A stretch of 64,000 nucleotides of DNA from Desulfovibrio legallii (GTDB lineage: Bacteria > Desulfobacterota > Desulfovibrionia > Desulfovibrionales > Desulfovibrionaceae), in the NCBI RefSeq assembly GCF_004309735.1, contig NZ_SIXC01000005.1, positions 124,001-188,000 on the forward strand. Direction: 5' to 3'. Under the pieces are notes generated by a model. It was not told the DNA's origin. It saw only the letters and a list, made by a program, of their open reading frames with translations, and ran no database searches. A program made the translations under genes and the position numbers. The stretch's first letter is position 1; each line of letters starts with the position of its first letter. Below are positions 3,354-64,000 of the stretch, one piece after another.

Positions 3354-3364
3354 TGCTGCGGGAT

Positions 3365-21744: not shown

Positions 21745-21855
21745 CGCCGGTTTATCCTGAACGTGCGTTGGCGGTCTGACGACTTGCCCGGGCTGCACGT
21801 CCGGGCCCTTGCTTTTACCGTATTTCAGTGTTACGATTATTTTAAAGATAACTTT

Positions 21856-22066
21856 AGGGCATTGCAACGTTGCAATGCCCTAGCAGTTGCGTGAGCAGAC
21901 GCCCGCCATGGAGGCGCAAGCGCAGCTTTAGCCGTTACGTCGCAAGAGCTTGGCCCGCTACGACGAAGGAAGTTCCGGGCAAAGACAGCGGCGCTGGCTA
22001 CGGATGAAGACGGCACCGCTATGTATTTGCGCGGGTAAGCGCCGGAACTCGTGTGCCGTAAACTTT
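21856..22066 (+). repeat. Dispersed repeat family A, copy A3 (full length)
   Basis: Opens with a perfect 26-base palindrome (AGGGCATTGCAAC and complement, 21856-21881). The blocks GTTGCGTGAGCAGACGCCCG, GAGGCGCAAGCGCAGC, GGGCAAAGACAGCGGCGC, TATTTGCGCGGGTAAGCGCC and GTGCCGTAAACTTT follow. Family-B copy B1 begins 31 bases later. Confidence 0.85.
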
Positions 22067-22097
22067 GTGACTACCTCTTTTCAAAGGTAATCTGCTC

Positions 22098-22224
22098 TAG
22101 AGCATGTAACACTTGAAATGCTCGCTTACGGCAGGCAAAAGCCTGCCTTCTCGCATTTCGTGGCAAGGATTTTCAAGAAAATCCTTGCAGAGCAGTTAGC
22201 TCATTTCATTCGCTAACTGCTCTA
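22098..22224 (+). repeat. Dispersed repeat family B, copy B1 (127 bp)
   Basis: Bounded by TAGAGCA and TGCTCTA. It contains four successive palindromes, in this orientation: GAGCATGTAAC..GAAATGCTC; GGCAGGCAAAAGCCTGCC; GCAAGGATTTTCAAGAAAAT..; and GAGCAGTTAGC..GCTAACTGCTC. It is orientated opposite to copies B2 and B3. The terminal TA dinucleotides may be a target duplication. Confidence 0.85.
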
Positions 22225-44485: not shown

Positions 44486-44613
44486 CTGACCGGGAGTTTT
44501 TGTCGCCCTGCGGCGACTGGAGAAAAGGGGGGCTGACCGGGAGTTTTTGTCGCCCTGCGGCGACTGGAGAAAAAGGCGTGTCCTGACCGGGACTTTTTGT
44601 TGCCCTGCGGGCA
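44486..44613. repeat. Tandem repeat of about 48 bp, 2.6 copies
   Basis: Units start at 44486, 44533 and 44583. Each begins CTGACCGGGAGTTTTTGTCG (third copy: GACTTTTTGTTG) and holds a GTCGCC-CTGC-GGCGAC hairpin followed by TGGAGAAAA. The third copy has lost the hairpin's right arm. It lies just downstream of cheV, in an 850-base stretch without genes. Confidence 0.85.
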
Positions 44614-44741
44614 TGGCGGCCTGGTTTTTTTATGGCATTTGGGCCGCCTCCGGCGAGGGCAGGGGGCCAAGGGCGGGGCTGCGCCCCCCCTTAGGCCCCC
44701 TACAACCCCCATAACCCCCCGCTTTCCCAGGGCAGCCCCAC

Positions 44742-45004: not shown

Positions 45005-45144
45005 ACGTGGATGTGGTAGCTGCGTTGAACAAAGCCGGGCTATGGCGTGTATGTAGTAGCTGCGGTGAGCAAGGACGGGCTATGGCGTGGATGTGGTAGC
45101 TGCGGTGAACAAAGTCGGGCCATGACGTGGATGTGCAGGTGCGG
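45005..45144. repeat. Tandem 40-bp repeat, about 3.5 copies
   Basis: Units at 45005-45044, 45045-45084, 45085-45124 and a partial from 45125. Consensus opens CGTGGATGTGGTAGCTGCGG and ends with a TGAACAAAG..CGGGCTATG part. No protein or RNA gene is recognised in it. Confidence 0.85.
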
Positions 45145-53838: not shown

Positions 53839-53965
53839 TAGAGCAGTTAGCGAATGAAATGATCTAACTGCTCTGCAAGGATTTTCTTGAAAATCCTTGC
53901 CACGAAATGCGAGAAAGCAGGCTTTTGCCTGCCGTAAGCGAGCATTTTAAGTGTTAAATGCTCTA
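53839..53965 (-). repeat. Dispersed repeat family B, copy B2 (127 bp)
   Basis: Same 127-base length and four-hairpin plan as B1 but in the opposite orientation. It starts TAGAGCAGTTAGCG and ends TAAATGCTCTA. On the minus strand it translates as the tail HLTLKMLAYGRQKPAFSHF and on, which also appears from copy B3. Confidence 0.85.
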
Positions 53966-60454: not shown

Positions 60455-61093
60455 CGAACAATGGGGACCACCTCTCCCCCCCACTCAAAGGATTCAGGCT
60501 CTCTACAGAGATAAGCCCTATCATGGCGCTTTGGTACTCAAAAATGAGGTGGCAGATGAATTGGCAAGACTTATCAATCAACATTGGATTGAGCATTGTT
60601 ACAGGTATCATCTCTGGCGTGTATACGGGCCTTGTGATGGCTAAGTTTACCTCTTTTTGCCAAGCGCGGTTGATGATCGTGACTATCTGTCGAGGCTTTA
60701 GCGCCGGTGGCACAAACGGAGTATTAGACTGTGCCGCTTTTCCTCGCGAAGAGGAAATTGTTCAGCATGCATGCACATTGCTCTATCTGGGCCACAAGTC
60801 CGCAGGAGGCAATGCGCTACAGCTATCCAAGGAAATTGGCCGAATAAAGTATGCTGTTGAAGCATATTTTCATTGCAAGATGCTCAACCAGAAACCAGAT
60901 CCGGAAAGCCTCGCAAACATCACATTACAGGAGGTGTTCGCCCACCTTAAAACATGGCAGGAGCAAAGTATGAAGCTGCAACCGAGCATTCGCACGCTCT
61001 TGTCAATTTCACCGCGGCTCTGATTCAGTTTCAGGTTGATTAAAAAAACTGAACCTCAACGGACAGGACCTCAGAGGTGGTCCCCATTGTTCG
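60455..61093 (+). mobile_element. 639-bp element with perfect 21-bp terminal inverted repeats
   Basis: The 21 bases starting CGAACAATGGGGACCACC at 60455 are exactly reverse-complementary to 61073-61093. The element sits inside the IS3-family remnant. It carries one reading frame and no recognisable transposase, so it would need help to move. Confidence 0.75.
60556..61023 (+). CDS. Membrane-anchored hypothetical protein carried by the 639-bp element
   Basis: 155 residues. Near the N-terminus one hydrophobic helix (INIGLSIVTGIISGVYTGLVM) is followed by a soluble, mostly helical domain with several Cys and His. No family is recognised. ATG 60556 is preferred over earlier ATGs because GAGGTGG (60546-60552) is well placed. 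Base composition is lower in GC than the chromosome around it. It is the only gene in the element, so it is cargo rather than a transposase. Confidence 0.6.
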   Translation: MNWQDLSINIGLSIVTGIISGVYTGLVMAKFTSFCQARLMIVTICRGFSAGGTNGVLDCAAFPREEEIVQHACTLLYLGHKSAGGNALQLSKEIGRIKYAVEAYFHCKMLNQKPDPESLANITLQEVFAHLKTWQEQSMKLQPSIRTLLSISPRL

Positions 61094-61304
61094 CCGACAA
61101 TCCTCTTCAACCGAGTGTTTTCATCCTCCAATTGCGTAGCCGTTTGGCATCAGGGACTTGCATCCCACCGAATTTGCTGCGCTATTTATAAAATGTCGCG
61201 TCCGAGATGCCGTTCTGTCGGCACAAATCGACAACGCGCACTCCTGCCTCGGCTTGCCGCAATATCCCAATAATCTGCTCTTCGGTAAATCTGCTACGTT
61301 TCAT
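61094..61304 (-). pseudogene. IS3-family transposase OrfA remnant
   Basis: Starts MKRSRFTEEQIIGILRQAEA and continues GVRVVDLCRQNGISDATFYK, a typical OrfA helix-turn-helix. The expected Trp codon is then TAG, and a base is missing before LEDENTRLKRIV. It carries both a nonsense and a frameshift change and is cut by the inner element. Confidence 0.88.
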
Positions 61305-61471
61305 CCTTGTGCTCCTATGTCAGGAACACGAACTTTTTAATGGCATACTTTTCGGGGGGAGGGTCAAAATGTGTTTTATATATTAAAAGAGTTTTAAATG
61401 TTTTTGGTGTATTCGTTAGGTATGCGGAACCTATTTGCACATAGGCAGGTGGTATTTGTTCGCAGGGCAAC

Positions 61472-62937: not shown

Positions 62938-63120
62938 TGCCCTGGCAGGTCAGCAGCCGCCCGTCGCTGAGGCGCAAGCGTAGCTCAGACGCTGAGATGC
63001 AGGAGCCTGATCCGTTACAACGAGAAAGTTACGGGCAAAGACAGCAGCGCCAGCTGCGGATGCAGACAGCACCGCTATGTTATTTGCGCGGGTAAGTGCC
63101 GGAACAAGCGTGCCGTAACC
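62938..63120 (+). repeat. Dispersed repeat family A, copy A5
   Basis: The opening palindrome is lost (only CCCTGGCAGG remains). Then come GAGGCGCAAGCGTAGC, GTTACGGGCAAAGACAGCAG, ATTTGCGCGGGTAAGTGCCG and GTGCCGTAACC. A GTTGAGAAT/ATTCTCAAC hairpin and family-B copy B3 follow. Confidence 0.8.
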
Positions 63121-63154
63121 GTTGAGAATGCGTATTCTCAACGGAACGCTGTTC

Positions 63155-63281
63155 TAGAGCAGTTAGCGAATGAAATGAGCTAACTGCTCTGCAAGAATTT
63201 TTTTGAAAATCCTTGCCACAAAATGCGAGAAGGCAGGCTTTTGCCTGCCGTAAGCGAGCATTTCAAGTGTTAAATGCTCTA
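63155..63281 (-). repeat. Dispersed repeat family B, copy B3 (127 bp)
   Basis: Same length and hairpins as B1 and B2, orientated as B2. Its right end (CTCTA) supplies the TAG stop codon of the minus-strand amidohydrolase gene. Confidence 0.85.
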
Positions 63282-64000
63282 ATAGACCAGCGCTTCGGGC
63301 AGAACGCAGAAGTCCGCCGGGGCCCCCGGTTCCAGGCGGCCCGCGCCGCTGGCCTGCAGGTTGAGGGCAGCTACGCCGTTGACCGTGAGCAGGCGCACCA
63401 GGGCTTCGGGCGGCACGTCCAGGGTTTCGCGCAGCCACGCGGCCTCCTGGCGTACGTCCAGGTCGCGGTTGGAGGTCAGGCCGTCTGTGCCCAGGCAGAG
63501 CAGGCAGCCGCTTTCCATCAGTTCGCGCACCGGGGCCAGACCTACGTCCAGGCGGCGGTTGGAGCGGGGGCAGAGGCAGAGGGCCGCGCCGCTGGCCGCC
63601 AGCACTTCCACTTCCTGCTGGTCCAGCTGTACGCCGTGCACGGCCAGGGTCCCCGCGCACAGTAAGCCCAGGCGCAGGGCGTAGGCCAAAGGCCGCAGGC
63701 CCGGCGCGCGCCAGTCCGGCGGCAGCACCACCCCCGCATAGCAGTCCAGCAGGGGCCCCGCGCCTTCCGTGAGCAGCTGCGTTTCCTCCGGCGATTCCGC
63801 CAAGTGGAAGGAAAATACCCGCCCCATGCGGCGGCAGTTTTCGTGCGCGGTTTGCAGCACGTCCGGCCCGGTGGAGTAGAGGGCGTGTCCGCCGGGGGCG
63901 CAGCGCGCCGCCAGAAAGGGGTCTTCCTCGGCGGCCTCGCGGCAGCGCGGCGGCCAGGGGCCTTCCCCCTGGGCAAAGGGCGGGCCAAAGCCGAACCACT
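63279..64000 (-). CDS. Amidohydrolase family protein (5' end cut by window edge)
   Basis: About 240 C-terminal codons of a metal-dependent hydrolase of the cytosine-deaminase/chlorohydrolase type. Metal and catalytic motifs: FSFHLAESPEET, LAVHGVQL, CPRSNRRLDVG and LCLGTDGLTSNRDLD. The C-terminal beta-strands GRLEPGAPADFCVLPE are usual for the family. The substrate cannot be told. The start lies beyond base 64000. The stop codon is provided by the edge of repeat B3. Confidence 0.87.
   Translation of the reverse strand, partial: WFGFGPPFAQGEGPWPPRCREAAEEDPFLAARCAPGGHALYSTGPDVLQTAHENCRRMGRVFSFHLAESPEETQLLTEGAGPLLDCYAGVVLPPDWRAPGLRPLAYALRLGLLCAGTLAVHGVQLDQQEVEVLAASGAALCLCPRSNRRLDVGLAPVRELMESGCLLCLGTDGLTSNRDLDVRQEAAWLRETLDVPPEALVRLLTVNGVAALNLQASGAGRLEPGAPADFCVLPEALVY

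Follow-up and report, generated by a model that had tools for sequence, protein, structure and literature searches.

A short, TA-flanked repeat family with IS630-like ends in Desulfovibrio legallii and related sulfate reducers

The 127-nt repeat at 22098-22224 of the window (the 64,000-nucleotide stretch of Desulfovibrio legallii DNA analysed here, positions 124001-188000 of contig 5 in genome G000, which comprises 2,675,015 bases in 35 contigs) is very probably a 123-bp non-autonomous transposon, or MITE, of the IS630/Tc1/mariner kind, flanked by a TA duplication. What we consider new is the family itself, together with its distribution, a covarying core whose ends are exchanged, and copies that land in stop codons. 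It adds an IS630-type MITE family that is spread over an order of sulfate reducers.

Copies and distribution

The copies in the window, and the terminal repeats of copy 1 scored against an IS630 end of genome G247, are as follows.

22098-22224, plus strand: element copy 1, subfamily B1, TA + 123 bp + TA; its left TA is also the end of a Family A repeat
22098-22121, plus strand: left terminal repeat of copy 1, TAGAGCATGTAACACTTGAAATGC, 19/24
22201-22224, minus strand: right terminal repeat of copy 1, TAGAGCAGTTAGCGAATGAAATGA, 16/24
53839-53965, minus strand: element copy 2, 127 nt
63155-63281, minus strand: element copy 3; its right TA also belongs to an outward-facing GAACA end
63281-63279, minus strand: left end of copy 3, which provides the gene at 63279-63998 with its stop codon

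The three copies are each 127 nt long, are 95-97% alike, end in TAGAGCA...TGCTCTA and lie in both orientations, just as the first-pass annotation had described them (three near-identical 127-bp copies bounded by TA-GAGCA...TGCTC-TA). Genome-wide, the core was matched with up to three mismatches 50 times forward and 53 times in reverse, with no match to the reversed-pattern control, and the terminal repeat was matched 114 and 109 times (control, 0). From the window and 102 stretches we recovered 103 distinct copies with their flanks; extended to the query ends, 99 of them are 127 nt long, two are 126 nt and two 128 nt. The family thus has the short length (127 nt), inverted terminal repeats and multiple copies (103) by which MITEs are recognized. 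Fourteen of the 103 copies are identical to the consensus. Two subfamilies, which differ at five positions, were separated on two diagnostic bases: B1, with 79 copies at a median of 2 differences from its own consensus, and B2, with 20 copies at a median of 1 difference. The G+C content of the element consensus is 44%, compared with 65% for the window.

The element was matched in 19 of the 79 genomes of the genus and in 41 of the 297 genomes of the order, representing 11 of 55 genera, some of these matches being only partial. Among 78 sampled copies from relatives, both flanks were alike in ten pairs from different genomes, all of them from G001, G005 and G042 and at four places. None of the 103 copies in G000 shares both flanks with any of the 78, a sample that is a minority of the relative copies. 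The sampled copies thus do not show the confinement to a few conserved orthologous positions that the first-pass annotation had set against its own reading. The neighbouring genes of the copy at 53839 lie apart in relatives, and G000, G057 and G058 each have their own sequence variants. Such a distribution is consistent with long residence in one clade and later multiplication in other clades. Searches of plasmids, phages and E. coli gave no match to the element, and no report of such an element appeared among the matches listed for literature on Desulfovibrio.

The TA target and unoccupied sites

TA is present at both ends of 91 of the 103 copies. After removal of 22 copies that adjoin another element, by a crude rule, 69 non-nested copies remained, and 60 of these lie in a YTAR target, compared with 8.3% of the 1,211 TA sites in the window; CTAG is the target of 22 of the 69, compared with 0.7% of the window's TA sites. 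The preference for R to the right of the TA (94%) equals the strength of the preference for Y on the left, which makes the target symmetric. For IS630 itself, a preference for TA within CTAG is given in the title of Tenzen and Ohtsubo 1991, cited in PMC2170065; IS630 differs from the element described here in being autonomous, about 1 kb long and equipped with a transposase gene.

With [Y]TAG at the left junction and CTA[R] at the right, the duplicated part can be TA only. This bears on the idea of an IS5-kind MITE with a 4-bp YTAR duplication, as reported in excerpts of PMC3189936 for MITEPsy1, an IS5-type element of 100 bp with a CTAG or YTAA target. The YTAR/CTAG target is identical in the two cases, but the duplication of MITEPsy1 is of four bases. 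In the element, T stands on the left in 22+7 and A on the right in 19+7 of 91 cases, so that [Y]TAG and CTA[R] are unequal in most TTAG, CTAA or TTAA copies and four bases cannot have been duplicated; moreover, PF01609 was unmatched in G000 (E<=0.001). We rejected this model as very improbable.

The symmetry of the target also argues against a REPIN-like hairpin pair moved by a RAYT or another Y1 transposase, whose cleavage at YTA on the left and CTA on the right would mimic a TA duplication. Like the element, REPINs are dispersed paired hairpins in high copy number (PMC3116915); the element has stable hairpins at both ends, and Y1 transposases were found in 20 of the 30 genomes searched. However, the long inverted ends of the element match IS630, and PF01797, the Y1 transposase family, was unmatched in G000 (E<=0.001) as well as in the element-bearing genomes G057, G001, G263, G273, G112 and the single-contig G124. 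The Y1 model was set aside in view of the lack of a match in G000, and we regard it as very unlikely.

Duplication of TA on insertion, as expected of an IS630-type MITE, can be followed at unoccupied sites, several of which lie in a second repeat family, Family A.

21855-22099, plus strand: Family A repeat beside copy 1, its ends are TAGGGCATTGCAACG and TAGAGCAGATTACC, the second on the opposite strand; boundaries set by eye

Joining the two flanks of each copy gave a junction-spanning match for 13 of the 103 copies, some of these being tandem or repeat artefacts, and for three copies (L198, L171 and L008) the match is an empty site within a Family A repeat. The cleanest is that of L198, which aligns with window positions 21854-21934 and has a single TA in the window's own Family A repeat, so that the TA at 21881-21882 corresponds, in unoccupied form, to the site into which the L198 copy inserted. 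The first-pass annotation had looked to empty sites for a single TA, and the cleanest one has it, although TG instead of TA aligns at this point in the 11 other distinct unoccupied Family A places, which are diverged (11 of 12 places in all, a point against the IS630 reading), and the other two nested cases align less cleanly: L171 is similar with small gaps, and L008 needs a one-base gap. In addition, tandem copies share one TA at L173 and at L203, and 28 of the 103 copies share a TA with an outward GAGCA-like sequence (at most one mismatch; chance about 1.6% per side), some of which, on a check by eye, are not element ends. The duplication of TA is thus supported by the 91 copies with TA at both ends, by one clean empty site and by the shared-TA copies.

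Family A is about 245 bp long and has IS630-type ends, which score 17-20/24 against those of the G247 IS630. It occurs in the window at 21855-22099, at 3364 and at about 62950-63155, and at many places elsewhere in the genome, and a 28-bp palindrome bounded by TA forms its left end. Solo 28-bp palindromes of the form TAGAGCA..TGCTCTA, which are two terminal repeats with nothing between them, number 26 in 11 of the 79 genomes, compared with four in four genomes for the reversed pattern; they were found at positions 1501-1528 of both L249 and L250, in G007 and G008, and at other places.

IS630 ends and the transposase

The first-pass annotation described the element as a MITE with an IS630/mariner-type TA duplication that was not tied to a visible transposase. 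The first part of this description is borne out by the single-TA empty site, the YTAR target, the IS630 ends found in relatives and some 103 scattered copies; the second part holds for G000 but not for its relatives. In G000, a draft genome that we searched with the transposase families PF13358, PF01609 and PF01797, there was no match to PF13358 (the IS630 DDE_3 domain) at E<=0.001, and a search with an IS630 transposase found nothing at E<=10. The same IS630 search of ten element-bearing relatives returned only three weak, partial matches (E 0.004, 0.13 and 0.35). Of 19 genomes in the genus that carry the element, 13 (G000 and 12 others, including the single-contig genomes G007, G008 and G058) had no PF13358 match, which counts against the IS630 reading; in other genera, 13 of 22 element-carrying genomes had one.

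In seven genomes we identified IS630 elements that measure 988-998 bp and have ends of the TAGAGCA type, at L063 (G012), L064 (G071), L087 (G063), L088 (G024), L312 and L325 (both G195), L315 (G247) and L316 (G266); L087 and L088 each have one end that is one base off TAGAGCA. Many other IS630 loci that we examined lack ends of this type. Two of the IS630 proteins have DDE_3 and helix-turn-helix domains, and P0001, by our own count, has DD34E spacing. At L064, positions 2387-2531, there is also a 145-bp element with similar ends that abuts the IS630 element (1396-2388), the two sharing one TA.

The left end of the element agrees with one of the G247 IS630 ends at 20 of 24 bases. Its right end in G000 agrees with IS630 ends at 17 of 24 at best, which weakens the assignment. 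When the G247 IS630 end was scanned against the 2,460 TA-anchored 24-mers of the window, ten scored 16 or more, and these were the six ends of this element and four ends of Family A; a control in which the inner bases were reversed scored 15 at best. G247 carries both the IS630 element and copies of the short element, so that the matching autonomous element not found in the draft G000 is present beside element copies there. Two element copies of G247 each match the resident IS630 at 21 of 24 bases, L412 with its left end and L413 with its right, although the right end of L413 fits the G012 IS630 equally well.

Based on these observations, we propose that an IS630-family DDE transposase, supplied in trans, would bind the GAGCA-type inverted repeats and insert the element at TA, preferably within CTAG or another YTAR, presumably by cut-and-paste chemistry of the usual type. 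Each insertion would create new YTAR sites, which explains why copies nest at the ends of similar elements. That such a transposase moved the element is what we infer from the copies, their ends and target, the one clean TA duplication and the IS630 ends of relatives, that is, from comparisons of sequence. The driver of the G000 copies is probably lost or unseen, and the source transposon may have disappeared from G000 following a recent burst. Genomes that are full of near-identical copies and have no visible transposase offer a setting in which the loss of a driver could be dated with the help of additional strains.

Stems, gene context and related elements

Copy 1, taken with six flanking bases on each side, has a predicted fold of -59.8 kcal/mol on the plus strand (z -7.9) and of -62.9 kcal/mol on the minus strand (z -6.9), and none of 200 shuffles folded as well. 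The structures concerned are listed here, with the share of paired cells, where given, taken from an alignment of 45 copies from 13 genomes (42 of the 78 relative copies and three of G000).

22100-22123, plus strand: hairpin I (GAGCAT/ATGCTC), an alternative fold that overlaps stem II
22110-22162, plus strand: stem II, CAC and GAAATG with CATTTC and GTG around GGCAGGC/GCCTGCC (helices 1 and 2; 94.5% and 92.0% of cells paired)
22163-22188, plus strand: stem III, GCAAGGATTTT/AAAATCCTTGC (helix 3; 96.0% of cells paired)
22189-22223, plus strand: hairpin IV, which holds the right terminal repeat and is exchanged in other lineages (helix 4; 85.7% paired)

A 39-pair structure, drawn in part from the sequences on which it was scored, had 91.8% of its cells paired, compared with 34.8-42.0% when the partners were slid, and two-sided changes were present in 17 of the 39 pairs. 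Among 500 shuffles, none reached the observed value on four measures and 18 did so on a fifth. Stem II reaches into the left end of the element through its CAC/GTG pairs. Hairpin I was rejected as a conserved stem: only 189 of 268 cells in the 45 copies are Watson-Crick, and it overlaps stem II. Four back-to-back hairpins, as first proposed, are indeed predicted on the plus strand of copy 1, but across species the aligned sequences give good support, in the form of compensatory changes, to three stems, with the first hairpin appearing to be a weak alternative fold.

Hairpin IV has been replaced, with the core stems retained, in copies of G247, G273, G279 and G254 and in one of the two copies of G290; those of G273 run off their contigs. 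Two of the 127-nt copies in G000, L192 and L228 (both at 1501-1627), are chimeras in which the right end has been swapped for other sequence, that of L192 resembling a Family A end, and they parallel the exchanged ends seen in other genera. Covarying stems across genera, together with an exchanged end, provide a handle on whether the hairpins of MITEs are selected.

The flanking genes are codirectional for 48 of the 103 copies, convergent for 40 and divergent for 8, with one copy inside a gene and six at gene edges; these counts, and those for stop codons below, rest on a small home-made gene caller. Divergent gaps make up 3,766 of the 15,337 intergenic bases of the window. In 33 of the 103 copies a called gene terminates at the TAG of an element end. 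As the element begins with TAG, it can enter a TAA or TAG stop codon at its TA without altering the protein, and in all 33 cases the far TA is followed by A or G, so the codon of the empty site was TAA or TAG. An ortholog supports one of these cases: next to the copy at 63155 is a gene ending in ...LPEALVY, and its counterpart in G058 ends in ...LPDALTY. Stop codons account for 13-14% of non-coding YTAR sites, compared with the 33 of 103 copies found there; matched by site type, 29 of the 91 YTAR copies are at stops against 17.6 expected (p ~0.003), the other four of the 33 being at sites other than YTAR. This excess is modest, as would be expected if insertions at these sites are harmless. 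The YTAR target and the TAG terminus together turn stop codons into harmless landing sites; a narrow literature search for insertion into stop codons found no paper.

The covarying stems raise the question of whether the element is itself selected for a structure that acts at the level of DNA or of RNA, for instance as a portable 3' end for mRNAs, transposition being a mere means of spread. The pairing statistics and two-sided changes described above favour this, as do the retention of the core in different genera despite exchange of the right hairpin, the placement with respect to genes and the frequency at stop codons. Several observations stand against it. Between codirectional genes the orientation is unbiased (25 versus 23 of 48), and mismatches of the G-T type (42 cells) and the A-C type (54 cells; 25 and 26 distinct types) are similarly frequent, which favours neither strand, although decayed copies weigh in these counts. 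RNAalifold alone kept 24 pairs, omitted the inner stem and gave a covariation term of only -1.12. Template switching between the arms of a hairpin can likewise produce compensatory changes, so that those in the stems could reflect either selection or template switching. The rarity of copies at divergent promoters is already predicted by selection against harm. Finally, the element belongs to no Rfam family: at the gathering score only a tRNA was found in the window, and a permissive search added just two sub-threshold hits to microRNA models. We therefore consider a selected element rather unlikely. The suggestion of a mobile structured RNA could be addressed in part: the stems covary, but no bias of strand or orientation was seen. 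A more specific and similarly doubtful version is that the central stems may be functional cargo (a site of protein binding, for instance, or a portable 3' end for mRNAs), conserved across the order and carried between exchangeable IS630 ends, in which case landing at stop codons and rebuilding would give many genes new, protein-neutral structured 3' ends.

Returning to the IS630-type MITE, close parallels to it are ERIC, with its relative MITEPlu5, and RUP. According to excerpts of PMC2229807 and PMC6267812, ERIC (also IRU or RU-1) is, like the element, 127 bp long, flanked by TA, high in copy number and mostly intergenic, and MITEPlu5 of Photorhabdus has 123 bp between its TAs and resembles the ends of a subset of IS630. 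An excerpt of PMC2267715 gives a single long stem-loop as the predicted structure of ERIC, whereas several adjacent stems are present here. RUP of Streptococcus pneumoniae, compared here through its published description, is 107 bp long with 108 copies, and has in common with the element its TA targets, ends like those of an IS630 (IS630-Spn1) and landing near other mobile elements; it differs in that IS630 is described as common in the pneumococcus itself, whereas none was found in the host genome here. The likeness to ERIC does not extend to sequence, as the element was unmatched in 20,395 records of E. coli, a species that carries ERIC, searched in a distant mode (E<=1e-5).

Other features of the window include a sequence of about 280 nt at 61087-61369, with 82-88% matches at many places in relatives, several of them near contig ends, and tandem direct repeats at 45006-45134 and 44486-44626, with spacings of 40 and 47-50 nt.
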